37,060 bases of DNA from positions 1 to 37,060 of the forward strand of contig DUUT01000005.1 of NCBI GenBank assembly GCA_012841405.1. Direction: 5' to 3'. The notes below the pieces were generated by a model, which was given only the letters and a program-made list of their open reading frames with translations, had not been told where the DNA came from and searched no databases. Positions 3,113-34,980 of this stretch are shown one piece after another. The position numbers were made by a program, and so were the translations under genes. Source of the stretch: Chloroflexota bacterium (lineage in GTDB: Bacteria > Chloroflexota > Anaerolineae > UBA1429). Numbering within the stretch: the first letter of the stretch is position 1; the number at the start of each line of letters is the position of its first letter.

Positions 3113-3158
3113 TTCAGAGCCATGGCGCCGTTAGTGGCGATTGTGGGAGGTAAGTGCC

Positions 3159-4808
3159 TTGGCACGGAATGGTACCGATTGGAGGGCCGGCGCGCGGGGC
3201 ATCGCCTGGCGCACGGCCATGGTGGTTGCGCTCGTGTGCCTGCTCGTAGCACCTGCGAGCGCGACGCAACCGATGGCAGCCTTGGATCGCGGTACGGACA
3301 CTACCCCCTACGCGTTGCCCCCCGAGGCTCTGGAAAAGATTGACCCCACGCTCCTCCAAGAGCTCGTATCCCGGGAAGGAATGGAACCGCTGCCGTCACC
3401 CGCAGCACGGGCCGCGGATGATCCCGTCACCTATCTCGTCCACCTGGGTGAGGCGACGTTGCCGACCGCCCTCAGCCTGCCGACCGACCGCCTGGCTCGG
3501 CGACACGCCGTCGTGGCGTGGCTGCAAGAGCGCGCCAGACGCTCACAGCGCGACGCCGTCGACCTCTTGCGTCAGCACGTGGCTTCGGGCCGCATTGCCG
3601 GCTTTCGTAGCTATTGGATCGCCAACGTCCTCGTCGTCGAGGGCGGCCTCGAGACGGCCGTTGCGCTGACGCTCCTGCCCACCGTGGCGGCGATCGTGCC
3701 GAACCGCGCCATCCCGCTGGCGCTCCCTGAGGGCCCCGAGCTGTCGCAGGAACCGCCGAATATCGCTTGGGGGGTGGATAGGATTGACGCCGACCGCGTG
3801 TGGGCAGAGTGCGGCATCACCGGACGCGGCATCGTTGTCGCCAACGTCGATTCGGGCGTTGACTGGACACACCCCGACCTCCAGCGCAAATATCGGGGCT
3901 ACAACGCCGCCGATCCCGCCGCCTCGGATCACAACTATCACTGGTTCGACTTTACCGGCACCTATCCCCGCGCGCCCGGCCCCCGCGACACGACGGGCAA
4001 TTACGTCGCCAAAGTCCACGGCACCCACGTCATGGGCACCATCGTCGGCTCGTCGCCCGACGGCACCACGATCACCGGCGTCGCCCCGGAGGCCCAGTGG
4101 ATCGCCGTCAAGGTGTTCGATGACAACGGGCAACCCGCCACAGAAGAGGCCTTCCTGGCGAGCTTTCAGTGGCTGCTGGCGCCCACCGATCTGCAAGGCG
4201 CCCATCCCGATCCCGCCAAGGCGCCGGATGTCGTCTGCAACTCGTGGGGCGATAGCGAGGATGGGGCCTCCACGGTGTTCCGTCAGAGCATTGAGGCGCT
4301 GCGTGCGGCCGGCATCCTCACCGTATTCGCCGCCGGCAACACGGGCCCCGGCACCGGTACCATCGACGTCCCGGCGAGCTATACGAACACCCTCGCCATC
4401 GGTGCGACCAACCCAACCGATCTCGTCGCCGAGTTCAGCAGTCGCGGGCCTTCACCGGGGGGACAGCTCAAGCCGGACCTGATGGCGCCGGGAGTCTCCA
4501 TCGTCTCCACAGCGCCTGGCGGTGGGTATGCCACCCTCTCCGGCACCTCTATGGCCACTCCCCACGCGGCGGGGACGCTGGCCCTCATGCTCGAGGCCGA
4601 CTGCAGCGCGCTCGGCGTGCCCACCGTGCCCATCACCACCATCGAGGGCATCCTCCGCGACACGGCCCTCGAGCTCGGTGACCCGGGGCCGGACAACACC
4701 TATGGCTATGGTCGGATCGATGCCCATGCCGCCGTGGGGGTCGTGCAGGGAATGCACCGTCTCGTGCTGCCACTGCTGATTCGGCGGGCGCCGGCACTGC
4801 GCCCATAA
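3159..4808 (+). CDS. Secreted subtilisin-like serine protease (S8 family)
   Basis: A 549-aa secreted endopeptidase. The signal peptide has a basic start, a hydrophobic core (VVALVCLLVA) and an ASA cleavage site near residue 34. A propeptide-like region (about 80-175) precedes the S8 domain. The catalytic triad is D231 (VDSGVDWTHP), H290 (HGTHVMGT; H287 is the other histidine) and S464 (GTSMATPHAAG). The oxyanion Asn is in AAGNTGPG, so the enzyme should be active. The start is set at the TTG at 3159. GGGAGG (3145-3150) lies 8 nt upstream, whereas the further-upstream TTG at 3141 precedes that ribosome binding site. The C-terminus is short and basic, with no anchor. The gene stands alone behind its own promoter and converges on the GH2 gene. 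Confidence 0.92.
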   Translation: MARNGTDWRAGARGIAWRTAMVVALVCLLVAPASATQPMAALDRGTDTTPYALPPEALEKIDPTLLQELVSREGMEPLPSPAARAADDPVTYLVHLGEATLPTALSLPTDRLARRHAVVAWLQERARRSQRDAVDLLRQHVASGRIAGFRSYWIANVLVVEGGLETAVALTLLPTVAAIVPNRAIPLALPEGPELSQEPPNIAWGVDRIDADRVWAECGITGRGIVVANVDSGVDWTHPDLQRKYRGYNAADPAASDHNYHWFDFTGTYPRAPGPRDTTGNYVAKVHGTHVMGTIVGSSPDGTTITGVAPEAQWIAVKVFDDNGQPATEEAFLASFQWLLAPTDLQGAHPDPAKAPDVVCNSWGDSEDGASTVFRQSIEALRAAGILTVFAAGNTGPGTGTIDVPASYTNTLAIGATNPTDLVAEFSSRGPSPGGQLKPDLMAPGVSIVSTAPGGGYATLSGTSMATPHAAGTLALMLEADCSALGVPTVPITTIEGILRDTALELGDPGPDNTYGYGRIDAHAAVGVVQGMHRLVLPLLIRRAPALRP

Positions 4809-4865: not shown

Positions 4866-6551
4866 TCATCCCTTCCCTGGACGCAGCAGCGCTCGCACCG
4901 TGCTGTAGGCCAGCTTGGGTCGGCGGTACGCGTCGAGCAGGCCCCTGGAGCTGGCATCCCCCAGGGGCTGTCGAGCACGCTCGGCGCCAGCCGCGCGCGT
5001 GTCGTACAGCTGCGACACATAGTACCCCGCCAGATCGGTCCGCTCTTGGACGTGCCGCACCCCCTCGGCCAAGAGCCGGCTCTGGTGCTCCTCGCTCCCA
5101 GGGACGTCATCCGCCAGGGCGCGGTGCCCATAGACCGCCCCGGCGCCAAACTCGGTCACCAGCATCGGCTTGGCGCCGATGCGGGCGCGCGTGCGATCGA
5201 GGAGCTCGGGCCAGGCCATGTCGTGGTTGCACCCGCCGCGATAGACGCTGACGCACACCACGTCCGCGAGATCCAGGCACGCGTCATCGAGGGCGTGGTT
5301 GGTGCCAAAGGTCACCAGCCGCGTCGGATCGGCCTCCCGGGCGATGTCGATCAGGCGCTCCAGCACTAACCTTGCCTCAGGGGTATCGGTGGCGCACGCG
5401 TTCAGCAGGCTCCATGCCCAGATGCAGGGGTGGCTGCTATCGCGCTCGATCGTGGCCCAGAGCATCGCCGCGGCCCGATTGGCGATCACATCCTGCGCCA
5501 GCTGTTCGCGACTGAACCCCCACAGGGGAATCTCTTCCATGAAGAGGATGCCGCGTTCATCGCAGAGGTCGAGGAGGCGCTCGTCGTTGGGGTAGTGCGT
5601 GCCACGGATGCTCGTGGCGCCCAAGTCGGCCAGCAGGTCGAGGTCTTGGAGCATGAGCGGTAGCGGCAGCGCGGGCCCCCAGTCGGGATGATCCTCATGG
5701 CGGTTCACCCCACGGATATGCAGCGGCACGCCATTCAGCAGGATATCCGTGCCGCGCACCACGAGGCTGCGAAAGCCGGTACGCTCGATGACGTCATCGC
5801 CGGCAAAGGCAAGGCGCGCGCTGTAGAGCTGGGGATCATCGGGGGTCCACAGGCGGACGTTCGGCACCTCCACAGCAAAGAGGAGCACGTGCGCTTCACG
5901 GGGATGCAGGCGGATGCGTCCACTGCGCAGGGGCTGCTCATCGAGCAGGAGCGTCCAGCGCTCATCGATCACGTCTTCGCCCACGTTGGTGAGCTCTGCG
6001 CGGACGCGCAGCGTCGCCTTGCCCTGGGCGACGACGGGCGTCAGCCGCAGACAGCTGATGTGCCCGGGCCCCGGCAGCTCCTCCACCCAGACGGGGCGGT
6101 GGATTCCGCCGTAGCGGAACCAGTCGAGGTTCGCCGAGGGAATCGTACTGACCATGTCGTAGGTGCTGTCCACGCGCACAACGAGCTCGTGCTCGCCGGG
6201 CTGCGGCACAGGGATGGAGAAGCAGAACGGTAGGAACGAGCCATAGTGCTCACCCAACGGCTCGCCATCAAGCCAGACGTTCGCTTGATGCGTGACGGCC
6301 GCAAAGCGCACCAGGGCCGCAGCGCACTCCCCGATGGTCAAGCGGGTACGGTACCACCCGACGCCCTCATAGTCGAGATACCCGCTGCACGTGTTCCACA
6401 CCCCCGGCACCCACACCTGCTGCCCGCCCGTGGGAAAGCGGTGGTACCACTCCTCGGTGATGCCGACATCGCCCGCATCCGGAACCCAATCCCAGTACCC
6501 TGCCAGATCCGTCTGTGTACGGGTCGTGGTTGTGGTAAAGGCTCGGTGCAT
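4866..6551 (-). CDS. GH2 family protein (beta-glucuronidase-like), acid/base Glu replaced by Ala
   Basis: A 561-aa protein with the GH2 plan: jelly-roll sugar-binding domain (about 15-190), Ig-like domain (about 190-285) and TIM barrel (about 285-561). Barrel motifs include GVNRHEDHPDWG and the nucleophile E467 in VTEFGAG. The strand that normally ends WSLxNE or WSxANE, whose Glu is the acid/base, reads WSLLNACAT. Residue 385 is Ala (GCG, 5397-5399). A normal retaining mechanism is therefore doubtful. It may be a lectin-like or regulatory relative, use another acid, or have a sequencing error. No signal peptide is seen, so it is probably cytoplasmic. The ATG at 6551 is chosen because GGAGGA sits 8 nt upstream and a promoter lies just beyond, inside the longer open frame to 6644. 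Confidence 0.9.
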   Translation of the reverse strand: MHRAFTTTTTRTQTDLAGYWDWVPDAGDVGITEEWYHRFPTGGQQVWVPGVWNTCSGYLDYEGVGWYRTRLTIGECAAALVRFAAVTHQANVWLDGEPLGEHYGSFLPFCFSIPVPQPGEHELVVRVDSTYDMVSTIPSANLDWFRYGGIHRPVWVEELPGPGHISCLRLTPVVAQGKATLRVRAELTNVGEDVIDERWTLLLDEQPLRSGRIRLHPREAHVLLFAVEVPNVRLWTPDDPQLYSARLAFAGDDVIERTGFRSLVVRGTDILLNGVPLHIRGVNRHEDHPDWGPALPLPLMLQDLDLLADLGATSIRGTHYPNDERLLDLCDERGILFMEEIPLWGFSREQLAQDVIANRAAAMLWATIERDSSHPCIWAWSLLNACATDTPEARLVLERLIDIAREADPTRLVTFGTNHALDDACLDLADVVCVSVYRGGCNHDMAWPELLDRTRARIGAKPMLVTEFGAGAVYGHRALADDVPGSEEHQSRLLAEGVRHVQERTDLAGYYVSQLYDTRAAGAERARQPLGDASSRGLLDAYRRPKLAYSTVRALLRPGKG

Positions 6552-6591
6552 GGCGACTCTCCTCCATGTGGCGTGGACGCAGGTCGCTGAG

Positions 6592-6620
6592 AGTATACCG
6601 ACGAAGGCGCGCGACGCCAA
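6592..6620 (-). promoter_or_regulatory. Promoter of the GH2 gene
   Basis: On the minus strand TTGGCG (6620-6615), 17 nt, TATACT (6597-6592). The predicted RNA start near 6585 is about 35 nt before ATG 6551, and this rules out the longer open frame. It is divergent from the glycosidase promoter at 6638-6666, with only 17 nt between the two boxes. Confidence 0.75.
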
Positions 6621-6637: not shown

Positions 6638-6666
6638 TTGTCAAACCATGACTCCTATGCTAGAAT
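6638..6666 (+). promoter_or_regulatory. Promoter of the multidomain glycosidase gene
   Basis: TTGTCA (6638-6643), a 17-nt spacer and TAGAAT (6661-6666). TG at 6658-6659 makes an extended -10. It predicts an RNA start near 6673 and a leader of about 165 nt before ATG 6840. It lies back to back with the GH2 promoter, so the two glycosidase genes may be co-regulated. Confidence 0.85.
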
Positions 6667-6839: not shown

Positions 6840-9800
6840 ATGGAGCACCAAGGAAGCCAGCCCCACCGTGGGCTAGCCGCGCTGGTCCGTAACAAATGGA
6901 CACAGCGCATCGTCTACCTCCTCATCATCCCTGCCCTCTTGCTGTACGCACTATGGCTTCCCCCCGCAAGTCTCGGGGCCCGTCTCTTCCACACCGACTA
7001 CCCCGTCATCACCCCTGATGGGGGCGGCACGGTTCCCGGCCCCGAGGGAGCGCGTCTCGAGGTGCCCGCCGGCGCCGTGGCCAAGCGCCTGCGCCTCCGC
7101 CTGGATGCTCTGACGGCCGATGACGTGGCCGCGCTCAAGCCGGACCGGCCCGAGGCCATCGCGGCACAGGCCCTGCCGGCGGATGTGACGCTCCACGGCC
7201 CCCTGTACCGGATTGACGCCCTCGGTGATGCGCCGAGCGCGGCCACCGTGACGCTGCCTGTGCCCTACGACCTCTCAAACCTGGCGTTGGCCGAGCTCTA
7301 CGGCTGGGATGGCTCCCAGTGGCAGTGGCTGCCGGCGCAGGTGCAACCCGGTGGCACCGAGATCGCCGCGCAAGTCGACACGCTGCCCGCCATGTTCGTT
7401 GTCGCCGAGGCCCAGCCATCCGACCCGCGCATCGCTTTCGGTACCTCGATATCCGAAGGCGAGGGCCAACTCGCGACCGCCGATGCCCCCGTCATTCTGC
7501 ACGGGGTGCAGATCGACGAGGAGGGCCTCCCCGGCGGCCCCTACACGGGCGATGGAACCGCTGAGGCCGAGCTCACATCCCATGCGCTGGGCAAGATGCT
7601 CTCCATTTCGAACGTCGTCGATGGCGTGGCCCGCAGCGACTGGGTCGAGAACATTATCAGTGACGCCACGACGCGCAAGGCGCACATCGACGCCATCGTC
7701 GCCCTGGCGTCGGGCTGGGCGTCCGCGCTCCCCGATGCTCGTGGCATCGAGATCGCCTACGACGGCGTGAGCGCTGTGGCCCGCGAGGCCATGACGGCGT
7801 TCGTACAAGAGCTCGCGGCGGCGCTGCACGCCGCGGGCCAGCAACTCGCCGTGCGTATCGACCCCGCCGCCGTTGGCACGTCTGACAGCGGGTACGACCT
7901 GCGCGCCATCGGCGCAGCGGCGGACGTGGTGCGCGTGGCCGCCCCCAGCGATCCCGCCGCCTATGCCGACGGCACCATCGATCACCTGCTGACCCAGCTC
8001 ACCGCCGCGGTCGACCGCCGCAAGCTCGAGCTGGTCATCGATACCTACGCTCGTCGTGGTACCGGCGACGGGAGCGAGGCGCTCACCTACCGTGCGGCGC
8101 TGAGCCTCCTCACGCAAGAGATCACGGCCGATCGCGCCGGCACGCCGGTGCTGCCCGGGCAAGCCGTCAAGGTGTCCCTGCCCGATCTCGCCACGACGCC
8201 CATCACCGTCGATCCCGCCTCCAAGGTCTACTCCTTCGTGATCGCCGCTGATGGCGCGCCGGAGACGGTCTATCTCGAGACCGCCGCCAGCGTGGCGGCC
8301 AAGCTAGCCCACGCGTCGCGCTACGGCCTGGGCGGCGCCGTCATCGAGGGCGCCCTCGACCCGGAGAACGATCGGAACGTCGCCGCCATGGCGCGCAACT
8401 ACCGGCCCGACCTCGCCGTGCCCGAACCCACGTTCGCCCTGGTATGGACCGTCGAGGATGCCTCGTCCAAGCGCCTGGCGCAGCAGGTGGTGCCCCTCAC
8501 CGATCCCAACTATACGTGGACGGCGCCCAGCGCCCCCGGCAACTATGTCATCAGCGCCTCCGTCTCGGATGATGGTGGCGAGACGGACATCGGCGGCGAC
8601 GGCAAGCTGGCCATGGTGGTGCCGACGCTGACGCCGACGCCCACCATGCCCCCTACGCCGACGCCGACGAACACGCCGACGCCCGCTCCGACGAACACCC
8701 CAGAGCCGACGAGCGAGGCTCCTGCGGAGCCCCCGGCGACCGAGGGGGAGGGCGAGGCCGCACCACCGGCGCCCACGGAGGCGCCACCGGCACCGCCGCC
8801 CGCCTCCCATCCTCAGGCACCGAGCTCCTTCGGCTATGGCATCCAGGTGCACATGGTCGATCAGGGCAACCACGGACAGATTCTGGACGCCGTGCAGGGG
8901 ATCGGGTTCGGCTGGATCAAGCAACAGGTCGAGTGGTTCCGCTTCAACCCGGCGCCTGGCCAGTACCATTGGGGCTCGTTGGACGCCGTGGCCGATGCCG
9001 CCGCCGCGCGGGGGATCAAGGTGTTGTTCAGTGTGGTCAAGGCGCCGCAGTGGGCGCGCCCCGGTCACACCGACTTTGGCGTCGAGGGGCCACCTGCCGA
9101 TCCCCAGACGTACGCCGATTTCATCGGCGCCATGGCCGCCCACTTTAAGGGGCGGGTGCAGGCGTACGAGATCTGGAACGAGCAGAACCTGCACTATGAG
9201 TGGGGCAACGAGCCGATCGACGCCGGGCGCTACATGGAGCTCCTCAAGCGGGCCTACGGTGCCGTCAAGGCTGCTGACCCGAACGCCATCGTGGTGAGCG
9301 GGGCGCTGACCCCGACGGGAGCGCCGCCGCCCTGGGCAGTCGACGACTTTGACTATCTCCGGCAGATGTACGCGCACGGCCTGCGCAACTACTGCGATGC
9401 CGTGGGTGCGCACCCCAGCGGCTACAACGTGCCGCCCAACGCGCCGTGGCCGGGCTATAACGACCCCACCGCTGGCTTCCGTGGGCCGTTCGATGGCGGG
9501 AGCGCCGGGCATCACAGCTGGGCGTTCCAGAGCACCATGAGCGGCTACCGCGCCATCATGAACCAGAACGGCGACGCCAACAAGCCCATCTGGGTCACCG
9601 AGTTTGGCTGGGCCTCGGTGGAGAACCTCGGCGTCGGCCCAGCGGCTGGGTACGAGTATGCAGCTGACAACAGCGAGGGCGAGCAGGCACAGTTCATCGT
9701 TGAAGCCTACCAGCGCGCCCGCGCCGGGCACTTTGGCCGCGTGGGGCCCATGTTCCTCTGGAACTTGAACTTTGCGCCGGTGGCCGGCAACGCCTGGGAG

Positions 9801-9878
9801 GGCTCTGCCTTTGGCATCGTCCGCGGTGACTGGAGCCAGCGCCCGGCCTATGCCGCCCTGCGCGACATGCCCAAGTAG
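6840..9878 (+). CDS. Membrane-anchored multidomain glycoside hydrolase (degenerate GH18-like segment plus clan-A catalytic domain)
   Basis: A 1012-aa surface protein. A basic N-terminus and one membrane helix (about 24-42) act as signal anchor. The regions are: a ZU5-like beta domain (about 55-190, PDGGGTVPGPEGARLEVPAG); a GH18-shaped region (about 225-500) whose usual DxxDxDxE site reads RGIEIAYD, so hydrolysis there is unlikely; an Ig-like segment (about 530-590); a Thr/Pro/Ala-rich linker (about 594-660); and a C-terminal TIM-barrel glycosidase. In the last, E781 (YEIWNEQN) is the likely acid/base and E921 (WVTEFGW) the likely nucleophile, as in GH39/GH5-type clan A enzymes. The substrate is unknown, perhaps a plant or microbial polysaccharide. 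ATG 6840 (AAAGGAG 12 nt upstream) is preferred to ATG 6807, which has no ribosome binding site. The gene ends in a strong terminator. Confidence 0.85.
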   Translation: MEHQGSQPHRGLAALVRNKWTQRIVYLLIIPALLLYALWLPPASLGARLFHTDYPVITPDGGGTVPGPEGARLEVPAGAVAKRLRLRLDALTADDVAALKPDRPEAIAAQALPADVTLHGPLYRIDALGDAPSAATVTLPVPYDLSNLALAELYGWDGSQWQWLPAQVQPGGTEIAAQVDTLPAMFVVAEAQPSDPRIAFGTSISEGEGQLATADAPVILHGVQIDEEGLPGGPYTGDGTAEAELTSHALGKMLSISNVVDGVARSDWVENIISDATTRKAHIDAIVALASGWASALPDARGIEIAYDGVSAVAREAMTAFVQELAAALHAAGQQLAVRIDPAAVGTSDSGYDLRAIGAAADVVRVAAPSDPAAYADGTIDHLLTQLTAAVDRRKLELVIDTYARRGTGDGSEALTYRAALSLLTQEITADRAGTPVLPGQAVKVSLPDLATTPITVDPASKVYSFVIAADGAPETVYLETAASVAAKLAHASRYGLGGAVIEGALDPENDRNVAAMARNYRPDLAVPEPTFALVWTVEDASSKRLAQQVVPLTDPNYTWTAPSAPGNYVISASVSDDGGETDIGGDGKLAMVVPTLTPTPTMPPTPTPTNTPTPAPTNTPEPTSEAPAEPPATEGEGEAAPPAPTEAPPAPPPASHPQAPSSFGYGIQVHMVDQGNHGQILDAVQGIGFGWIKQQVEWFRFNPAPGQYHWGSLDAVADAAAARGIKVLFSVVKAPQWARPGHTDFGVEGPPADPQTYADFIGAMAAHFKGRVQAYEIWNEQNLHYEWGNEPIDAGRYMELLKRAYGAVKAADPNAIVVSGALTPTGAPPPWAVDDFDYLRQMYAHGLRNYCDAVGAHPSGYNVPPNAPWPGYNDPTAGFRGPFDGGSAGHHSWAFQSTMSGYRAIMNQNGDANKPIWVTEFGWASVENLGVGPAAGYEYAADNSEGEQAQFIVEAYQRARAGHFGRVGPMFLWNLNFAPVAGNAWEGSAFGIVRGDWSQRPAYAALRDMPK
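8622..8815 (+). repeat. Low-complexity Thr/Pro/Ala linker coding repeat
   Basis: Degenerate repeats of ACGCCGACG-type units encode TPT, TNTP and APPAP runs between the Ig-like segment and the C-terminal catalytic domain. This is a flexible extracellular linker, prone to length variation by slippage. It is part of the gene, not a separate element. Confidence 0.8.
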
Positions 9879-9898
9879 GTTCGCGTTTGGAGAATGCC

Positions 9899-9936
9899 AC
9901 GACGTAGAGCACAATGAACGTGCTCTACGTCGTTTT
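9899..9936 (+). terminator. Rho-independent terminator after the multidomain glycosidase gene
   Basis: A perfect 14-bp stem (9899-9912 with 9920-9933) and a 7-nt loop, followed by TTTT. The loop contains an ATG (9914) that is in frame with the next gene. It would give a false start 111 nt too early. Confidence 0.92.
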
Positions 9937-10024
9937 CTTGCGGCGCCCACGCACCGCAGGGAACCCTCCCATCGACTCTGGCGTCCAACAGCGTGTACCA
10001 CATCTTTGGAATTGGAGTCCGCCA

Positions 10025-11359
10025 TTGAGACAGCCATCACTCTCACAACGAGCCATTCTGGGCGTCCTCGCCTTCATCGTCGTGCTGTTGGCGGCGTGCA
10101 GCCCGTCGGTAGCCACGCAAGAGGCCCCCGAGCCGGGGGCCGACGGCGCGCCCACCCGCACTCTCCGGCCGTCCTTTACGCCGGCGCCTCCCGAGGCCGA
10201 ATCCCCCCGCGACCCGACGACGCCGCCCTCACCAGGGGGAGAGGCCGCCGCCCCCACCGAGCAGGGGGCCGAGACGTCGCTGGCAGAGGGACCGACGGAC
10301 AGGCCGGACGTGCCGCCCATCAAGCCGCTGCGCATGGAGTCGCCCGAGTACGGCATGCAAGCGTTTCTCTGGTGGCGGCCCGAGGTGGCCAGCCGTGACC
10401 TGCAGGTGATCCGCGATGCCGGCTTTGGCTGGGTCAAGGTGGGCTTTGGCTGGCGCGACATCGAGGGCGCCGCCAAGGGCGCCTTTGACTGGTCACGCAC
10501 CGACCTCATCGTGGACCTCTTCAACGAGGTCGGCCTCGACGCCGTGGTGCGCATCGATCATCAGCCGCAGTGGGCTGGTGGTGGGTTCCCGGTGAATGGC
10601 CCGCCGGACGACTATCAGGACCTGGCCGATTTTGTCTATGCCGTGGCCGATCGCTACAAGGGCCGCATCCGCGCCTACGAGGTATGGAACGAGCCAAACC
10701 TGGCGCGTGAGTGGGGCGGACGGCTCCCGGACCCGGGCGAGTACGCCGAGCTGCTGCGCCTCTCGTACGCCGCCATCAAGCGCGCCGACCCCAACGCCAT
10801 GGTCATCAGCGCCGGCCTGTCGCCCACGGGCACGTGGAATGACGAGTCGCGCCCGGATGACTGGTACCTGGAGAGCATGTACATCGCCATGGGCGGCAGC
10901 AGCGATGGCTACTTTGACGTGCTGGGAGCCCACGGCGCCGGCTACTTGAGCCCGCCAGAGCGTGACCCAGCCGTCGTCGCCGCGAACCCCGACCTGGGCG
11001 GCCATCGCGCCTTTGCCTTCCGGCGCGTCGAGGACCTCCGCGCCATCATGGTGCAGTACGGCGATGCCGACAAGCAGATCGCCCTGCTCGAGTTTGGCTG
11101 GACCAGCGATCCGCGGCCCGAGTCGCCCTACAACTGGCATGCCGTGAGCGAGGAGACCAAGGCCGAGTACCTCGTGAACGCCTACCAGTACGCCAAAGAG
11201 AACTGGTCGCCATGGATCGGCCTGATGAGCCTCATCTATATCGCTGATCCCGATTGGACGCCAGAGCACGAGCAGTACTGGTGGGCCATCACCGAGCCGG
11301 GCTATCCGGAATTCATCCCACGCCCGGCGTACACGGCACTGAAGAACATGCCCAAATAG
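10025..11359 (+). CDS. Lipoprotein clan-A glycoside hydrolase (GH39/GH5-like)
   Basis: A 444-aa secreted lipoprotein. The signal peptide (MRQPSLSQRA, then GVLAFIVVLLAAC) ends in a lipobox with Cys at about residue 25. A Pro/Thr/Glu-rich linker (about 28-95) leads to a TIM-barrel glycosidase. E223 (YEVWNEPN) is the likely acid/base and E356 (LLEFGWTS) the likely nucleophile. The catalytic half is clearly related to that of the upstream gene (KGRxxAYExWNE, AIKxADPNAxVxS, AFxxxxxxAIM, ending NMPK or DMPK), so the pair probably arose by duplication. TTG 10025 is chosen because GGAG lies 7 nt upstream and a proper lipoprotein signal follows. The in-frame ATG 9914 sits in the loop of a terminator. 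A promoter of its own is not obvious; TCGACT-18-TACCAC (9972-10001) is a weak candidate. Confidence 0.87.
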   Translation: MRQPSLSQRAILGVLAFIVVLLAACSPSVATQEAPEPGADGAPTRTLRPSFTPAPPEAESPRDPTTPPSPGGEAAAPTEQGAETSLAEGPTDRPDVPPIKPLRMESPEYGMQAFLWWRPEVASRDLQVIRDAGFGWVKVGFGWRDIEGAAKGAFDWSRTDLIVDLFNEVGLDAVVRIDHQPQWAGGGFPVNGPPDDYQDLADFVYAVADRYKGRIRAYEVWNEPNLAREWGGRLPDPGEYAELLRLSYAAIKRADPNAMVISAGLSPTGTWNDESRPDDWYLESMYIAMGGSSDGYFDVLGAHGAGYLSPPERDPAVVAANPDLGGHRAFAFRRVEDLRAIMVQYGDADKQIALLEFGWTSDPRPESPYNWHAVSEETKAEYLVNAYQYAKENWSPWIGLMSLIYIADPDWTPEHEQYWWAITEPGYPEFIPRPAYTALKNMPK

Positions 11360-12931: not shown

Positions 12932-12961
12932 TGGGGCGCTGATCTCCCCCTTAGCGCCCCA
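12932..12961. terminator. Bidirectional hairpin between murA and the convergent zinc-ribbon gene
   Basis: TGGGGCGCT (12932-12940) pairs with AGCGCCCCA (12953-12961), a 9-bp stem with a 12-nt loop. It overlaps the last codons of the minus-strand gene, which stops at 12951. There is no long T-run. Confidence 0.55.
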
Positions 12962-14132
12962 GCGCCTCGTGCAACCAGAACTGCTCTGCCCGGGACGCCA
13001 CACCATCGTACGACACCCGATCCCAGTTCGTCTCCATCACGGCCTCTCGCGCGTAGCGCGCCACCACCACGATGGTCTCCTGGGACGTGCCATCCTCATC
13101 GAGCACCGCGTACGACCCCTGTACCGCCAGCTCATCGCCCACCATGCCCGCTCCCTGAATGGCCCTGAGAATGCGCAGCACGTCGATCTGCGCCCCTGTC
13201 CGCGTCAGCCAGGGAGTGTTGCCCCGGTTGATGGCCCAATCTACAAAGAGCTGTAACCCTTCGGGGCGCCCGCGCGCCTGCACGACGCGCACACGCCCCA
13301 CGTCTGGCCGATTGCTGGCGCCCAGGGCATCCACCACCGCCTCCTCCAGGCGCCGCAGCGTCTCGGCAGTCACTGGCACGGGGCTGGAGGTGGGCGTCAT
13401 GGTTGCCGTCATGGACGGCGTCATCGTCGGCGTCATCGTCGGCGTTGCCGTGGCGGTTGGCGTCGCCGAGGGCGAGCTGGTCGCCGTCGCCGTGAATGAG
13501 GGGGTCGGCATGGCGGTGGGCGGGGCGATCGCCGTCGGTGAAGCCAGAGCCCGAGCGATCGGCGAGACGGCGGCCTCGGTGACAAGCGCCTCCGTCGCCG
13601 TGCGGGTCGGGGTGGGCGCGGTCACATCCATACGCGTGGGAGGTACCGTCGATGGGAGCGCCGTGGGTGCCGCCCCACTGGCGCGTGACGCCGTCGCAGC
13701 AGGGGTGGCCGCGGCGGGCGCATCCGCCGGCGCCGGCCCCTCGACGATGCTCCACGCCCAGCGCTGCGCCGTCGTTGGGTTCGCCAGGAACCAGACGAGC
13801 GCCACCCCCGCAAGAACGACGCCCGCCACACCGGCGCACGCCCAGGTCGAAGCGCGCAGGGGGAGCGTACGGGGGGGCACCTCGGCCCACGCTGTGCCGC
13901 CACACATGCGGCACGCGAGCCCTGGCGCATCAAGGGAGTCACGCGGATGGCCACAGCGCCCACACCACGCATCCGGCCTTGCGGCCGGGAACCAACGCCG
14001 CACGCGCCCCGGCCCGCTCAGTGTGAGCACCGGCAAGGACGGGGCATCGCCCACGACGCCGCCACACAGGGGGCACACAAAGAGGGTAGACAGCCTTGGA
14101 TCACGGGGATACCCGCAATGGCTGCAACGCAT
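12951..14132 (-). CDS. Double zinc-ribbon membrane protein with Thr/Pro linker
   Basis: A 393-aa protein of unknown function. Two four-Cys zinc ribbons open it: C3/C6/C20/C23 (CSHCGYPRD...CPLC) and C57/C60/C74/C77 (CGRCGHPRD...CRMC). The two ribbons resemble each other and suggest an internal duplication. One membrane helix follows (about 98-117). A Thr/Pro/Ala/Ser-rich segment (about 125-262, TPTMTPTMTPS-like) then leads to a folded C-terminal domain of about 130 aa with no motif I recognise. Expected topology is ribbons inside and C-terminal domain outside. ATG 14132 is chosen because it starts the first ribbon. The upstream extension to 14357 is Arg/Pro-rich and would overlap the next minus-strand gene. 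No Shine-Dalgarno sequence is seen, so the start is less certain. The gene lies downstream of the PH-like gene and may be cotranscribed with it. Confidence 0.78.
   Translation of the reverse strand: MRCSHCGYPRDPRLSTLFVCPLCGGVVGDAPSLPVLTLSGPGRVRRWFPAARPDAWCGRCGHPRDSLDAPGLACRMCGGTAWAEVPPRTLPLRASTWACAGVAGVVLAGVALVWFLANPTTAQRWAWSIVEGPAPADAPAAATPAATASRASGAAPTALPSTVPPTRMDVTAPTPTRTATEALVTEAAVSPIARALASPTAIAPPTAMPTPSFTATATSSPSATPTATATPTMTPTMTPSMTATMTPTSSPVPVTAETLRRLEEAVVDALGASNRPDVGRVRVVQARGRPEGLQLFVDWAINRGNTPWLTRTGAQIDVLRILRAIQGAGMVGDELAVQGSYAVLDEDGTSQETIVVVARYAREAVMETNWDRVSYDGVASRAEQFWLHEALGR
13388..13640 (-). repeat. Low-complexity Thr/Pro/Ala coding repeat in the zinc-ribbon gene
   Basis: Short tandem units encode TPTxTPT-like sequence; for example, a 12-nt unit GGCGTCATCGTC on the plus strand is repeated directly near 13420-13443. 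This is an extracytoplasmic linker similar in composition to that of the glycosidase at 6840-9878. Confidence 0.75.
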
Positions 14133-14247
14133 CGCAGGGCGGGAGGCGCGTGCGTCACGATCATGCTGGAGCACTGGAGGTCCTCGCGTTTGACCACGTC
14201 CGGTTGTACCGGGCGGCTTAGGCAGTATCCCGAGGCTGGCCGTCGGC

Positions 14248-14802
14248 CTAGCGTGCCTGCGCCCCGCCGTGCCCGGCGCGTGGGGTCTCTGCGCCGTTAC
14301 GCGCGGGGTCCGCGGCCCCCGCTGGGAGCGCATCGCGGCTGCGCAGGATGAGATCACGCCACACGCTACCGTCCTTCAGATCGGCGACCGTGGCGACGCG
14401 GCGTTCAACCGCCGTACCCACCTGCACGGTGAGCACGAGTGACTCGGCATAGCGGAGCTTGCCGGGCCAGAGGCGCTCCAGCAGGGGAATGCCAGCGTGG
14501 CGAGGGAGCACCGAGGTCCCTAGGCCCACATCGACGATGTCCTGCAGGGAGATGTCCACGCTACCCTGCCACCCATCGAATCGTAGCGACTGGCTCGTGA
14601 GACGGAGTGTACCGCGGTCCAGCGCACTGTCGTTCAGGTACGCCGCCGAGGCCCGACGCAGGACCTTGCGGCTCGCACGAGGGGTGGCCACCCCTTCGGT
14701 GGTGGCCCCACCCCCAGCCGTTGCTTCCACTTGCCCCTCGTCTGTGGGTTTTGACTGAGACGGGGAATCATCGCGTGGGCGCTTGTATGCCGCTCTTGCC
14801 AC
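14248..14802 (-). CDS. PH/GRAM-like domain protein
   Basis: A 184-aa protein. The first 45 or so residues are polar and disordered-looking. A single beta-rich domain follows (about 46-160) with AAYLNDSALDRGTLRLTSQSL, FDGW, ISLQDIVDVGLG and LVLTVQV, then a helix (VWRDLIL). This matches the plan of GRAM/bacterial PH domains: seven strands and a capping helix, with lipid or protein binding. The family call is moderate. There is no membrane helix. GTG 14802 has GGAGGA 9 nt upstream and a good promoter at 14847-14875. It is followed after 115 nt by the zinc-ribbon membrane protein on the same strand, so the two may work together. Confidence 0.72.
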   Translation of the reverse strand: MARAAYKRPRDDSPSQSKPTDEGQVEATAGGGATTEGVATPRASRKVLRRASAAYLNDSALDRGTLRLTSQSLRFDGWQGSVDISLQDIVDVGLGTSVLPRHAGIPLLERLWPGKLRYAESLVLTVQVGTAVERRVATVADLKDGSVWRDLILRSRDALPAGAADPARNGAETPRAGHGGAQAR

Positions 14803-23446: not shown

Positions 23447-24376
23447 TCACTCGGTCAACCGGATGTCCAGCCCGCACACCGCGGCCCGGTCGATGGTCAC
23501 TTGGCCCGCCACCACGCCACCGAGCATCTGCGCCTCGCGCAGCCATGCCTCGGCGCGAGCAAGGGAGCGCGTCCGCAGGACGATGGCCAGCAAGGTGTCC
23601 TCATCGTGGGGCACAATCCGCAACCCCGGGCCCGACGCAGGCTGCCAGTACCCGCGATCCACGGGCAGCAAGGGGGCGAGGAGATTCTGCCAGCGCTGGC
23701 GCACCCGCTCCGGATGCACCGCCCCCACGATCACTTCGGCCAAGCCCACGAGCTCTAGCGGCCCACCGCGCCGTTCAGAGAAGACAGCCTGCTGCTCCGC
23801 CAGTGCCTCCACGAGCTCTGGGGCATAGTCCCTCATGTACACCGCAAAGCGCCCCGTATCGGACCACGCCAGGCTTGCCCAGTAGCTACGGAACGTTATG
23901 CGGCTCAGGGCAGCAAGCGCGCGCCCGATGGGCGTGCCCTGTGTCCACCATCGGCTGCGCAGTAGGATGCTGCCGCCCTCCCCCGCCAACCCGCCCAGCA
24001 GAACGTTGGTCCACCGAACGCTCCGCGTCCCGTCGGCGTGCTCCCCGAAATGAGGCACGGGCAGACTATGGGGGATGCCACGCATGACCAGCTCTCTCAG
24101 GCTGGCGTCCAACCCGATGGGCAGGAGAGCGATCCCCAACAGGTGGGCGTTTCGCGCCACGCGCCTCCGTCGTCTATCGATGTGCGCGATCTCGGCGATC
24201 TCGAGGCAGGCGTTGCCGACGCAGATGCCTCCGCTGGTGTACCAGTCGCCTCTCTGGATCGGCCACGCCACGGGGAGATCCAGCGGGCCGGTGAACAGCG
24301 AAAACAGGGGTTCCGGATCCTCAACCTGGATGACGACGTGGTCGACGCATTTGACGATCGCAGCCAGAGCAGACAT
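23447..24376 (-). CDS. Glyoxalase/VOC-like domain protein
   Basis: A 309-aa cytoplasmic protein that starts with a vicinal-oxygen-chelate type unit (VKCVDHVVIQVEDPEPLFSLF, then CLEIAEI). A second, more diverged half (about 175-305) has a similar beta-strand pattern, such as LRIVPHDEDTLLAIVLRTRSLARAEAWL. VOC proteins bind a metal and act on small carbonyl or aromatic substrates; the metal ligands here are not certain and the substrate is unknown. ATG 24376 is used with AGGAAC upstream. It lies 44 nt behind the acyltransferase gene on the same strand, so the two are probably in one transcript. Confidence 0.75.
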   Translation of the reverse strand: MSALAAIVKCVDHVVIQVEDPEPLFSLFTGPLDLPVAWPIQRGDWYTSGGICVGNACLEIAEIAHIDRRRRRVARNAHLLGIALLPIGLDASLRELVMRGIPHSLPVPHFGEHADGTRSVRWTNVLLGGLAGEGGSILLRSRWWTQGTPIGRALAALSRITFRSYWASLAWSDTGRFAVYMRDYAPELVEALAEQQAVFSERRGGPLELVGLAEVIVGAVHPERVRQRWQNLLAPLLPVDRGYWQPASGPGLRIVPHDEDTLLAIVLRTRSLARAEAWLREAQMLGGVVAGQVTIDRAAVCGLDIRLTE

Positions 24377-26960: not shown

Positions 26961-27011
26961 GCCGCCAGGGCTGCACCCGGTAGCCCCGACGTCGCCCAGG
27001 AGGATGTGACC

Positions 27012-28295
27012 ATGGCAACCGTACGAGAGTCGGCTCGGGATATCCCCATCGTCCGCGAGGTGGATGTCGTCGTGGCGGGAGGTGGACCGGCGGGATTCGC
27101 CGCGGCCACCGCGGCGGCGCGCCTCGGCGCGCGCGTGGTGCTCGTCGAGCGCTATGGCTGCCTGGGCGGCCTGGCAACGGGTGGCATGGTGCTCTACATG
27201 GATGGCCTGTTCAACAAGGCGGGCGAGCGCGTGATGGGCGACATCCCTTGGGAGGCGATGGAGCGGCTGCGCGCCATGAACGGCCTCGGCCTCGACGCGC
27301 CGACGCGTATTCACGTCGATTCGGAGCTGCTCAAGGTGGTGGCCGACGCCCTGTGCACCGAGGCGGGCGCCGAGCTGCGGCTCCACTCCTGGGTCGCCAA
27401 CACCTGGGTCGAGGACGACACCGTGCAGGGCGTCATCGTCGAGACCAAGGCGGGGCGTCAGGCGATCCGCGCCAAGGTCTGCATCGACGCCACCGGCGAC
27501 GGCGATGTGGCCGCCCTGGCGGGCGCCACCTTTGAGACGGGGCGCCAGCGCATCGGCCTCAACCTCAAGATGGGCGGCATCGATCGCGACCGCTTCCTGG
27601 CATTCGAGCGCGACCACCCCGAGCAGGCCCGCGCGCTCCGGGCACGGGTGCGCGAGATGGGCGGCTTTCCCCTACGGCCCAACACGACGCCCGATAGTGA
27701 CGCCGGTGTGTACTGGATCAACATCCTGGGGCTGGCCGACCGGGCCGGCGGAGGAAAGGACGAGGGCTCGGTGCACGACATCTTTGATGGCGCCCTCGAC
27801 GCCCTGAGCGTAGAGGACCTCACCTTTGCCGAGGTGACGCTGCGCAAGGGGTTGGTGGCGACCATCGACCTGTACCGTCAGTCCGTCCCCGGCTTTGAGA
27901 ACGCGCACCTGCTGGCGTTTGCCTCACAGCTCGGCGTGCGTGACAGCCGGCGTATCACCGGCCTCCACAAGCTGAGCCGCGAGGATATGCTCTCGCAGCG
28001 CCGCTTCGACGACGCCATCGGCACCTCAGGCCTCAGTTTTTCCAATGTGGGCCAGTACTGGATCCCCTATGGCAGCCTCGTTCCGGAGCGGCTCGACGGC
28101 CTGCTGCTGGCCGGGCGTTGCATCTGCGCCGACGGGTGGGCGCAGCAGGCGATCCGCCTGATCCCACCGGCCATGGTGACCGGCCAGGCAGCCGGTACGG
28201 CCGCAGCCATGGCGGCGCGCCTGGGCATCGCCCCCCGAAACCTCGAACCCGCCGCCCTGCGGCGCCAGCTCGCCGATGACGGCGTCATGTTGTGA
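27012..28295 (+). CDS. FAD-dependent oxidoreductase (PF12831-type)
   Basis: A 427-aa flavoprotein. The Rossmann motif GGGPAG (23-28) with E46 at the end of strand two binds FAD. ERYGCLGGLATGGM and IDATGDGDVAALAGA are typical of the FAD_oxidored family. The C-terminal LLLAGRCICADGWAQQAIRL...GQAAGTAAAMAA closes the FAD site. Members are often next to sugar or sugar-acid catabolic genes; the substrate is unknown. ATG 27012 is chosen because AGGAGG lies 8 nt upstream; the GTG at 27006 is too close to it. It is followed after 61 nt by a sulfatase gene, and a 40-bp palindrome covers its stop codon. Confidence 0.9.
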   Translation: MATVRESARDIPIVREVDVVVAGGGPAGFAAATAAARLGARVVLVERYGCLGGLATGGMVLYMDGLFNKAGERVMGDIPWEAMERLRAMNGLGLDAPTRIHVDSELLKVVADALCTEAGAELRLHSWVANTWVEDDTVQGVIVETKAGRQAIRAKVCIDATGDGDVAALAGATFETGRQRIGLNLKMGGIDRDRFLAFERDHPEQARALRARVREMGGFPLRPNTTPDSDAGVYWINILGLADRAGGGKDEGSVHDIFDGALDALSVEDLTFAEVTLRKGLVATIDLYRQSVPGFENAHLLAFASQLGVRDSRRITGLHKLSREDMLSQRRFDDAIGTSGLSFSNVGQYWIPYGSLVPERLDGLLLAGRCICADGWAQQAIRLIPPAMVTGQAAGTAAAMAARLGIAPRNLEPAALRRQLADDGVML

Positions 28296-28317
28296 CGCGT
28301 CACAAGATGACGCTGTC
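28278..28317. repeat. 40-bp near-perfect palindrome over the FAD-oxidoreductase stop codon
   Basis: Two 20-nt halves (28278-28297 and 28298-28317) match as inverted repeats at 18 of 20 positions, including a perfect central GTGACGCGTCAC. The sequence GCTTTGGCCTTTT follows. It may act as a transcription terminator, a binding site for a dimeric regulator ahead of the sulfatase gene, or both. Confidence 0.85.
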
Positions 28318-28356
28318 GCTTTGGCCTTTTACTGTCACGCATGAGGGAGACACATC

Positions 28357-29811
28357 GTGAGTGGGTCAGGATCGACCATGCCCGACGAGCGCCCCAACAT
28401 CCTGTGGATCTGCACCGACCAGCAGCGCTGGGACACCATCCGCGCGCTGGGGAACGCGCACATCCGTACACCGCATCTCGATCGGCTCTGCGCCGAGGGG
28501 GTGGCCTTTAGCCGCGCCTACTGCCAAAGCCCCATCTGCACGCCCAGTCGGGCCTCCTTCCTGACGGGGCAGTATCCCAGCACGCTACACGTCACCCGCA
28601 ATGGCAATGACTATTACCCCAGCGACACGGGCCTGATCACCCGTACCCTGGCTGATGAAGGCTATGACTGTGGCCTCGTGGGCAAGCTGCACCTCTCGGC
28701 GGCCGAGGGGCGCGTCGAGGTGCGCCCCGATGACGGCTATCGCCTCTTCCTGTGGAGCCACCATCCCGGCCCCGAGCCGTTCTGGCCGATCGAGGACCAC
28801 GCCTACCAGCGGTGGCTGCGCGACCAGGGGGTGAACTGGCGCGAGGCGTACGGCGGCGATCGCCAGCCAGGGTTCAAGATACAGACCGACTACTCGCGAG
28901 GGATCGCTGCGCGCTACCACCAGATGACGTGGTGCGCCAACGAGGCGATCGCCTTTATGAGCGAGCCACGACAAGGGCCATGGCTGATGAGCGTCAACCC
29001 CTTTGATCCGCACCCACCGATGGATCCCCCGCCCGAGTACATGGCGCGCATGGATATCGACGCCATGCCACTGCCGCTGTTTCGCCCGGAGGAGCTCGAG
29101 AGCCAGCGCGCCTATGCCGCCATCGACCACCAGACCACGACCCCGCGTTCGCCGCTGGACTATGACGCGCGCCGCATGGTAGCGGCCTACTATGCCCAGA
29201 TCGAGCTGATCGACGACCAGCTGGGGCGCATCCTCGACGCGCTGGACGAGAGCGGCCAGCGCGACAACACCATCGTCATCTTTATGAGTGATCACGGCGA
29301 GATGCTGGGCGACCACGGCCTCTTGCTCAAGGGGTGCCGTTTCTATGAGGGGGTGGTCCGCGTGCCCCTCATCATGTCGTGGCCGGGCCACTTTGCCCAG
29401 GGGCTGCGGAGCGACGCCCTGGTAGAGCTCACTGACGTGGTGCCCACGCTGCTCGAGTGCGTGGGGCTGCCGATCCCCGAGCGCGTGATGGGGCGCTCGC
29501 TGCTGCCCATCCTGACCCAGCGTGCCGATCCGAGCTCCCACCGCGATTTCGTGCGCTGTGAGTACCACGACGCCCTGGCGCTGGAGCACGCCAGCCACGC
29601 CAACATGATCGTCGATGAGCGCTACAAGCTGGTCGTCTACCATGGCCAGGACCTCGGCGAGCTGTACGACCTGCAGGAGGATCCCCACGAGTTCGAGAAC
29701 CTCTGGGACGATCCTGCCCACGCCGAGATCCGCTTCACCCTGATGAAGCGCCTTTTTGATGCCGTCATGCAGGCCACCGACCCCGGCCAACCGCGCGTGG
29801 GTCGGTTCTAG
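28357..29811 (+). CDS. Sulfatase (formylglycine-dependent, S1-type)
   Basis: A 484-aa hydrolase of sulfate esters. The signature CTPSRASFLTG (C61) is the site of formylglycine formation, and the anaerobic-type or FGE-type maturation enzyme is not in this window. Metal ligands are in WICTDQQ (D21) and SDHGEMLGDHG. No signal peptide is visible, so it is likely cytoplasmic, acting on imported sulfated sugars; choline sulfatase-like relatives share this layout. GTG 28357 has GAGGGA about 8 nt upstream. ATG 28378 is an alternative. It follows the FAD oxidoreductase and precedes an amidohydrolase, suggesting a catabolic group. Confidence 0.93.
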   Translation: MSGSGSTMPDERPNILWICTDQQRWDTIRALGNAHIRTPHLDRLCAEGVAFSRAYCQSPICTPSRASFLTGQYPSTLHVTRNGNDYYPSDTGLITRTLADEGYDCGLVGKLHLSAAEGRVEVRPDDGYRLFLWSHHPGPEPFWPIEDHAYQRWLRDQGVNWREAYGGDRQPGFKIQTDYSRGIAARYHQMTWCANEAIAFMSEPRQGPWLMSVNPFDPHPPMDPPPEYMARMDIDAMPLPLFRPEELESQRAYAAIDHQTTTPRSPLDYDARRMVAAYYAQIELIDDQLGRILDALDESGQRDNTIVIFMSDHGEMLGDHGLLLKGCRFYEGVVRVPLIMSWPGHFAQGLRSDALVELTDVVPTLLECVGLPIPERVMGRSLLPILTQRADPSSHRDFVRCEYHDALALEHASHANMIVDERYKLVVYHGQDLGELYDLQEDPHEFENLWDDPAHAEIRFTLMKRLFDAVMQATDPGQPRVGRF

Positions 29812-29831
29812 GAGGTCAGCCCCAAGTACCA

Positions 29832-29855
29832 CAGAGGACCCCAGAGGTCGCAGAG
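29832..29855 (+). repeat. Spaced CAGAG repeats after the sulfatase gene
   Basis: CAGAGG at 29832-29837 and 29842-29847 and CAGAG at 29851-29855, spaced 10 and 9 nt. This resembles CACAGAGG-type short intergenic repeats seen in many environmental bacteria. It is too short for certainty. Confidence 0.4.
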
Positions 29856-29876
29856 CACAGCACACCCGCTGACCGC

Positions 29877-29897
29877 CCCCCCGCACATCACGGGGGG
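29877..29897. terminator. GC hairpin after the sulfatase gene
   Basis: CCCCCCG (29877-29883) and CGGGGGG (29891-29897) form a 7-bp all-GC stem with a 7-nt loop. It lacks a T-run. It lies 66 nt past the sulfatase stop. Confidence 0.45.
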
Positions 29898-30046
29898 AGA
29901 TCATCAGGGCAGCGATGGAGGGGTATCGCGCCCTGGTTGGGAAAGCCACATCACACTGCGCCCAATCAGCGCACCGTTCTCTCCCGTGCCCTGTGCGCTC
30001 CCGGTGATCTCTGGCTAGACAATCATTATCTTGACGGAGGATAACC

Positions 30047-30805
30047 ATGCGAATTGATGCGGATTGCCACATCTCCTCCCGCGCTCCGGAGCAAGGGATC
30101 AGCGTGGATGAGCTGCTGCGGCGGCTCGATGCCCTCGGCGTCGACCGCGCCGTGTGCTGGCCCATGGTGTCATACACCAAGGAGATGGCCAACGACAACC
30201 GGGCGATCAACGAGGGCTACAAGGCCCATCCCGATCGCATTATTCCCTTCGGCGGCGTAAACCCCCTCACGGGGTTTGACGCGGCGCGCGATGAGCTCAA
30301 GCGCTGCATCGAGGAGTATGGCGTCAAGGGCGTCAAGCTGAATGGCGCCCGCGACGGCTACTACATCGACGACCCCAAGCTCAGCCTGCCCCTCGTGGAG
30401 ATGATCGCCGAGGCGGGCATCGTTCTGGCGTTCCACTGCGGGGCGAACGACTTTGAGAAGACGCACCCGTTTCGCATCGCCAAGATCTCGGACATGTTCC
30501 CGGATCTGAACATCATGATCGTGCACATGGGCGGCTCTGGCCAGCCCACGCTCCACGACGCCGTCATCGAGTTCGCCGCCAAGTACCCCAAGTGGTACCT
30601 CATCGACTCGGAGGCCGACTACCGCAAGGTGCTCGTCGCCCTCGACCGCCTCGGCTCCGAGCGCGTGTGCTATGGCAGCGACACCCCCTTCTGCCCCACC
30701 CGCTTCGAGTTCGGCCTGCGCCAGGTGTGGTACCAGGACCTGAGCGAGGACGACAGGGCCAAGGTGATGGGGGGGAACATGGCGCGATTGCTGGGGTTGG
30801 CGTAG
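30047..30805 (+). CDS. Amidohydrolase-2 family metal-dependent hydrolase
   Basis: A 252-aa TIM-barrel protein of the amidohydrolase-2 (decarboxylase/lactonase-like) family. Visible are DADCHIS at the start (D4, H8), VKGVKLNG, the metal-type His in LAFHCGAND and IVHMGGSG, and the Asp in CYGSDTPF near the end. These enzymes hydrolyse lactones or decarboxylate aromatic acids. The usual HxH pair at strand 1 is DxxxH here, so the metal site is partly changed. ATG 30047 has GGAGG 7 nt upstream. Its placement between a sulfatase and a glucokinase fits sugar or sugar-acid breakdown. No clear promoter of its own is seen. Confidence 0.87.
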   Translation: MRIDADCHISSRAPEQGISVDELLRRLDALGVDRAVCWPMVSYTKEMANDNRAINEGYKAHPDRIIPFGGVNPLTGFDAARDELKRCIEEYGVKGVKLNGARDGYYIDDPKLSLPLVEMIAEAGIVLAFHCGANDFEKTHPFRIAKISDMFPDLNIMIVHMGGSGQPTLHDAVIEFAAKYPKWYLIDSEADYRKVLVALDRLGSERVCYGSDTPFCPTRFEFGLRQVWYQDLSEDDRAKVMGGNMARLLGLA

Positions 30806-34076: not shown

Positions 34077-34092
34077 GGAGATGGGCAAGACG

Positions 34093-34980
34093 ATGACCGA
34101 TCGCATCATGATCCGTGATTTGCTGGTACGCGCCATTCTTGGCATCAACCCCGACGAGCGCGTCAAGCGACAGGATGTGCTCATCAACGTCACCCTCGAC
34201 GTGGACACGCGCCCCGCTGCGGCGACTGACGCCATCGACGACGCCGTCAACTATTCGGCGCTCACCCACGAGATTACCACGCTCTCCGAGGGAACGCGCT
34301 ACCACCTCATCGAAAAGCTGGTTACCGAGATCGCTTGGCTGTGCCTGGACGACAGGCGCGTCCAAGCGGCGACGGTCACCGTGGACAAGCCGACGGTACT
34401 GCGCTTTGCCCGCTCGGTCGGCATCACGGTGCGCCGCACCCAGCTGGAGCGGCAACAGCACGCCTTTCCGGTGTACATCGCCCTGGGCTCCAACATCGAG
34501 CCCGAGCGCCACCTGCGTCTCGCCGTACAACGCCTTAGCGAGCGCTGCCGCCTCGAGGCCATCTCGCCGGTCTATGAGAACCCGCCCGTTGACGGCTCGG
34601 ACCAACCCTGCTATTTTGATGCCGTGGCACGGGCATTCACCACCCTCCCCCCGCGCACGTTCAAGGAGGAGGTCCTGCGCGCCATCGAGGCCGACCTCGG
34701 CCGGGTGCGCACCGAGGATCCGTATGCCGCCCGTACCATCGATCTGGACCTGATCCTGTACGGTGACCGCGTCCAATCGAGCGGAACGATGCGCGTCCCA
34801 TCCGAGGGCATTACCCAGTATGCGTTTGTGGCCGTCCCCCTGGCCGATCTGGCACCGACGCTGCCTCACCCCGAGACCGGGGAGCCGATGGCGTCGATCG
34901 CCGACCGCCTGAACCGCGACGACCTGAAGCGGCGAGACGACATCGTCCTCTGGCCACTCGATAATGATAGACGAGGATGA
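34093..34980 (+). CDS. folBK: Dihydroneopterin aldolase / 6-hydroxymethyl-dihydropterin pyrophosphokinase fusion
   Basis: A 295-aa bifunctional folate enzyme. Residues 1-118 are FolB with E22 (GINPDER), Y54 (VNYSAL) and the catalytic K99 (VDKPTVL). Residues 127-275 are FolK, beginning VYIALGSNIEP and with the metal Asp pair D217/D219 in RTIDLDLILYG. The two steps (aldol cleavage, then pyrophosphorylation) are consecutive, so the fusion channels one pathway. Start: GAGGAG lies at 34075-34080. This is 12 nt from ATG 34093 but directly abuts ATG 34081, so 34093 is preferred (the 34081 form adds four residues). It follows the SDR stop by 16 nt. folP is not in the window. Confidence 0.92.
   Translation: MTDRIMIRDLLVRAILGINPDERVKRQDVLINVTLDVDTRPAAATDAIDDAVNYSALTHEITTLSEGTRYHLIEKLVTEIAWLCLDDRRVQAATVTVDKPTVLRFARSVGITVRRTQLERQQHAFPVYIALGSNIEPERHLRLAVQRLSERCRLEAISPVYENPPVDGSDQPCYFDAVARAFTTLPPRTFKEEVLRAIEADLGRVRTEDPYAARTIDLDLILYGDRVQSSGTMRVPSEGITQYAFVAVPLADLAPTLPHPETGEPMASIADRLNRDDLKRRDDIVLWPLDNDRRG

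Follow-up and report, generated by a model that had tools for sequence, protein, structure and literature searches.

The GH2 protein encoded in the window (the whole 37,060-nucleotide stretch of DNA analysed here) appears on balance to be a lineage-specific pseudoenzyme, derived from a cytoplasmic GH2_3 beta-hexuronidase (beta-galacturonidase/glucuronidase). Judged from its residues, catalytic function has very probably been lost, and the pattern of constraint suggests that the gene has been kept for a non-catalytic role rather than having entered early decay. Rather than an active enzyme, the protein is probably either a remnant that no longer cuts or a protein that binds; going by established GH2 chemistry, it is very unlikely to hydrolyse hexuronides by the ordinary retaining mechanism, because the acid/base, the platform tryptophan and the uronate clamp are all absent. 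Annotation by family models is likely to name the protein beta-glucuronidase or beta-galactosidase, neither of which its residues support.

The GH2 protein and its catalytic loops

The reading frame is whole, with neither stop nor frameshift within 4866-6551 of the reverse strand, and its ATG is preceded by a strong ribosome site (Table 1). A promoter scan of the region around the start returned two promoter-like sites, against 0.2 expected in shuffles. No signal peptide was seen by eye at the N-terminus, MHRAFTTTTTRTQ, and for this reason the protein is probably cytoplasmic. Three GH2 Pfam domains scored above cut-off in the 561-residue product (PF02837, PF00703 and PF02836), in the order N-terminal jelly-roll, Ig-like domain and (beta/alpha)8 barrel; these N-terminal, sandwich and TIM-barrel domains, together with the nucleophile glutamate of loop 7, place it in the GH2 sequence family. 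The AlphaFold model (pLDDT 87.6, pTM 0.90) found its best fold match in 6NCW/6NCX (TM 0.87-0.89; 0.88 for 6NCW), and 6NCW, a beta-galacturonidase from Eisenbergiella tayi, is also the nearest solved protein by sequence (279 bits). A lost catalytic motif is combined with a fold that, as predicted, has been kept.

Table 1. Positions of the GH2 gene, its catalytic-site codons and its neighbouring features in the window
Feature	Position	Strand	Remarks
GH2 gene	4866..6551	-	561 codons + stop; degenerate catalytic site
Shine-Dalgarno-like GGAGGAGAG	6557..6565	-	5 nt upstream of ATG at 6551; sequence read directly
Sigma-70-like promoter TTGGCG-17-TATACT, for the GH2 gene	6592..6620	-	9/12 matches
Asn384 (GusA N412), kept	5400..5402	-	Alignment
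Ala385 (GCG) replacing the acid/base Glu (GusA E413), loop 4	5397..5399	-	Alignment
Ser435 for Asn (GusA N466), loop 6	5247..5249	-	Asn in 42/42 relatives
Gly440-Cys441 for Trp-Tyr (GusA W471-Y472), loop 6	5229..5234	-	Trp-Tyr in 39/42 relatives
Glu467, nucleophile (GusA E504), kept, loop 7	5151..5153	-	Alignment
Ser513 for Trp (GusA W549), -1 subsite platform, loop 8	5013..5015	-	Trp in 42/42 relatives
Pro529 for Arg (GusA R562), carboxylate helper, loop 8	4965..4967	-	Arg in 39/42 relatives
Ser534-Ser535-Arg536 for the NxK uronate motif (GusA N566-K567-K568), loop 8	4944..4952	-	Alignment
Subtilase	3141..4808	+	Convergent with the GH2 gene, likewise in G005
Divergent sigma-70-like promoter TTGTCA-17-TAGAAT	6638..6666	+	TG before second hexamer
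Membrane-anchored GH18/GH39-like protein	6840..9878	+	Divergent; probable start 6840
GH39/GH5-like lipoprotein	9914..11359	+	Ordinary conservation

An initial annotation of this DNA had held that the acid/base glutamate was replaced by Ala385 (GCG), while the nucleophile E467 (VTEFG) was present. Both points were confirmed by residue-by-residue mapping onto E. coli GusA, whose letters were verified against PDB chains: A385 corresponds to E413 and E467 to E504. WSLLNACATDT likewise aligns with WGILNECASDT of 6NCW, A385 standing opposite the catalytic glutamate, so that the NE-motif glutamate of active GH2 retaining glycosidases is missing. The same alanine had been proposed as something to seek in orthologs, but all 42 aligned relatives carry glutamate in this column and, in this alignment, the alanine occurs in the GH2 protein alone. 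One other statement did not hold. The rest of the barrel, described as intact, has seven more catalytic-loop residues replaced that are invariant or nearly so elsewhere, and the single A-to-C change said to separate GCG from GAG accounts for one codon of a loss that covers at least eight, from 4944 to 5399.

The active site of GH2_3 hexuronidases comprises NE in loop 4, a tyrosine in loop 6 and a tryptophan in loop 8; an arginine and the NxK motif hold the carboxylate, and the loop-6 tyrosine assists in binding it (PMC12243196). Replaced together in the GH2 protein, in GusA numbering, are E413A, N466S, W471G, Y472C, W549S, R562P, N566S and K568R; in its own numbering, the seven losses beyond the acid/base are N435S, W440G and Y441C in loop 6 and W513S, R529P, N534S and K536R in loop 8. 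C441, P529, S534 and R536 thus occupy the positions of the uronate clamp. Kept are E467, N384, Y437, R316, H319 and the loop-2 residues. Nine of 78 highly conserved positions differ, compared with 0-2 in each ortholog, and they are unevenly spread: residues 371-561 lost 8 of 30 conserved sites, residues 1-370 lost 1 of 48 (Fisher p = 0.0016). Loops 4, 6 and 8 contain all eight C-terminal losses; 8/12 sites in these loops were lost, versus 1/66 others (p ~2e-7, for a loop set defined after the data were seen). Disorder of loop 8 was dropped as a sign of damage, since in the intact ortholog L033 this loop is of low confidence as well.

The initial annotation had offered, among other readings, a non-hydrolytic protein, and this is well supported, as the substrate-binding residues went along with the acid/base. 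It had also offered an enzyme with another acid, which is weakly supported, as no acidic residue was gained beside loop 4. In such a repurposed enzyme, a changed pocket would act on non-uronate sugars by way of another acid, for instance E524 or D532 of loop 8, or on a substrate with an activated leaving group. The nucleophile is retained, GH2_21 glucuronidases work despite a replaced acid/base, for which another glutamate has been proposed (PMC12243196), and the galactosidase activity of GusA is raised by N566S and K568Q (PMC3118342). We nonetheless consider repurposing improbable: the platform tryptophan, loop-6 tyrosine, arginine and NxK are all gone together, E524 and D532 are the sole acids gained nearby, sit in the low-confidence loop 8 and are not shared by any of the seven family orthologs, and the pattern of change is relaxed rather than directional.

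Placement among relatives and constraint on the two halves

Orthologs of the GH2 protein, 52-63% identical, were found in 7 of the 14 other genomes of its family, which belongs to the Chloroflexota, and the 42-relative alignment consists of these and of loci added from the class and from GTDB genomes. The protein pairs with L006 in the clade formed by the family (support 1.0 at full length and 0.95 for the C-terminal half) and so groups with hexuronidase-type orthologs; the nearest solved protein, 6NCW, belongs to GH2_3. No wider clade with the same loss was found among loci from 298 class-level and 400 phylum-level genomes within the E-value limits used. The loss is seen in one genome only, and the searched set held no second species of its genus. 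The source genome contains no second close GH2 copy; its other GH2 matches are paralogs of 31-35% identity, and an Asn-Glu motif is readable in three of them; a back-up active copy was ruled out on this basis. Loss of the uronate pathway as a cause was likewise set aside: UxuA is present and a distant UxaC-like match was found, as it was in relatives, with no link shown.

The source MAG (4.0 Mb, 96% complete) has an estimated contamination of 7.5%, and the losses cluster within about 460 bases, both of which would fit an error of sequencing or assembly confined to the gene's 3' half. This explanation is nevertheless the least credible of those considered, given that the frame is whole despite many changes and that both halves place in the same family clade beside L006. 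A chimeric 3' half was ruled out, trees from either half giving the same placement, as was a single-base error at 5397-5399, since at least eight catalytic-site codons differ together. Scattered base errors are made unlikely by a control in the same window, MurA, which is off at 4 of 194 invariant sites, all mildly and within the range of its relatives; the GH39-like neighbour is ordinary too.

Constraint on the two halves was compared with a two-ratio codon model on two topologies, in which synonymous sites were saturated and the omega values are accordingly rough. In the C-terminal half, omega on this branch was 0.24-0.28 versus a background of 0.074-0.077 (2dlnL 8.0-9.9), a signal that weakened but persisted when the eight lost codons were left out (2dlnL 6.3); in the N-terminal half it was 0.080-0.084 versus 0.069, which is not significant. 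No other tip branch reached a 2dlnL of 4 in this model. These data show that relaxed selection is limited to the C-terminal half and to this branch. In the C-terminal half, at first and second codon positions that are otherwise invariant, 18 base changes ran toward G/C and 4 away, a bias typical of plain relaxation in a GC-rich genome, and one which argues against a fine-tuned new site.

The main rival to a kept pseudoenzyme is early gene decay, in which a dispensable enzyme would have lost its catalytic residues to drift first, with its frame still unbroken and with no present function. It would account for substitutions biased to G/C and toward Gly, Ala, Arg, Pro and Ser, as expected without selection, for a raised omega that reaches beyond the eight lost codons, and for the lack of an evident partner function. 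We regard it as unlikely, though less so than repurposing, because the N-terminal half is constrained as in intact orthologs. When neutral evolution was simulated so as to match the losses of the C-terminal half, 11-12 of the 48 conserved N-terminal sites were expected to be lost, against the one observed, and one loss or fewer arose in at most 0.5% of runs. The frame without stop or frameshift, and the promoter-like and ribosome sites ahead of it, also speak against decay, although the unbroken frame is less telling, being retained in 0.8% to 21% of neutral runs depending on mutation bias. Neither a broken frame nor gene-wide relaxation, as in a pseudogene, was found. On the evidence of this one genome, a kept pseudoenzyme is favoured over a dying gene because N-terminal constraint has been selectively maintained.

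We therefore propose the following course for the preferred reading, a kept pseudoenzyme. An ancestral GH2_3-type beta-hexuronidase would have been inherited vertically, and its catalytic apparatus dismantled in this lineage, with the acid/base, the -1 platform tryptophan, the loop-6 tyrosine and the arginine and NxK of the uronate clamp gone and the fold kept. The resulting protein would no longer hydrolyse glycosides and would persist as a folded pseudoenzyme; its remaining role, one without need of the old pocket, may be to bind, to act as a scaffold or to assemble oligomers through the sandwich domains. A more specific version, which we put forward tentatively and hold to be less probable than the general one, is that the beta-hexuronidase, still at its original locus and with no duplication, became a non-catalytic protein under selection: binding or regulation would fall to the sandwich domains together with half of the barrel, while the catalytic half has been released from constraint.

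Gene neighbourhood

The GH18/GH39-like neighbour of the GH2 gene is also present in three other genomes of the family, G001, G002 and G009; an intact GH2 gene faces the same GH39-like genes in G002 and G009, and the genes lie nearby in G001. Gene order indicates that the GH2 locus is ancestral and the gene vertically inherited, because neighbours on both sides are shared with intact orthologs. The initial annotation had read the divergent promoter as suggesting a working partnership with the glycosidase gene beside it; the same layout accompanies the active-looking GH2 of G002 and G009, so it predates the loss and offers no evidence that the inactive form in particular works with a partner. 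The GH39-like neighbours look anchored or lipidated, whereas the GH2 protein is probably cytoplasmic. In G009, a histidine kinase follows the GH2 gene.

Other features of the region were observed in passing. The GH39-like gene pair (6840-11359, forward strand) is kept as a unit near GH2 in four family genomes, the source included. A FolB-HPPK (FolK) fusion lies at 34081-34980 (forward), and stand-alone FolK-like genes occur near the GH2 gene in L074, L075 and L076. FAD_oxidored, arylsulfatase-like and amidohydrolase genes stand in a row at 27006-30805 (forward), possibly as a catabolic cluster. Two reverse-strand genes have no Pfam match: 12951-14357, whose product has zinc-ribbon-like CxxC pairs and a long Thr/Pro/Ala-rich linker, and 23447-24376, which encodes 309 residues.

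Comparison with known systems

The E. tayi GH2_3 beta-galacturonidase (6NCW/6NCX) shares with the GH2 protein its domain order, its nucleophile, the asparagine of NE and the loop-2 residues, but has the acid/base glutamate, platform tryptophan, loop-6 tyrosine, arginine and NxK, all of which the GH2 protein is without. E. coli GusA is alike in family and fold and differs in that its E413, N466, W471, Y472, W549, R562, N566 and K568 are replaced here.

Chitinase-like proteins are pseudoglycosidases of another family, and most pseudoglycosidases are thought to arise after duplication. Heparanase-2 is a pseudoglycosidase of another family as well (PMC12406646), and both resemble the present case in having kept a glycosidase fold and lost catalytic function. 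They belong to different families, however, and here it is a single-copy ortholog that is affected; with seven intact orthologs in the same family, it is a clean case for asking if the GH2 scaffold still has a role once catalysis has gone.

Closer in family are GH2_19, members of which have TV, NA or NQ in place of NE, and GH2_21, which also lacks the acid/base glutamate (PMC12243196). Like the protein described here, these are natural GH2 proteins without that residue, the NA form included. They are, however, other subfamilies, where the residue has been lost repeatedly and where, in GH2_21, another conserved glutamate may make up for it (PMC12243196), whereas here the loss concerns one lineage within a hexuronidase clade, and the sugar-binding residues were lost too. 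Loss of the acid/base in other GH2 subfamilies is already known; the present case differs in that a single-copy hexuronidase ortholog has lost its entire clamp.
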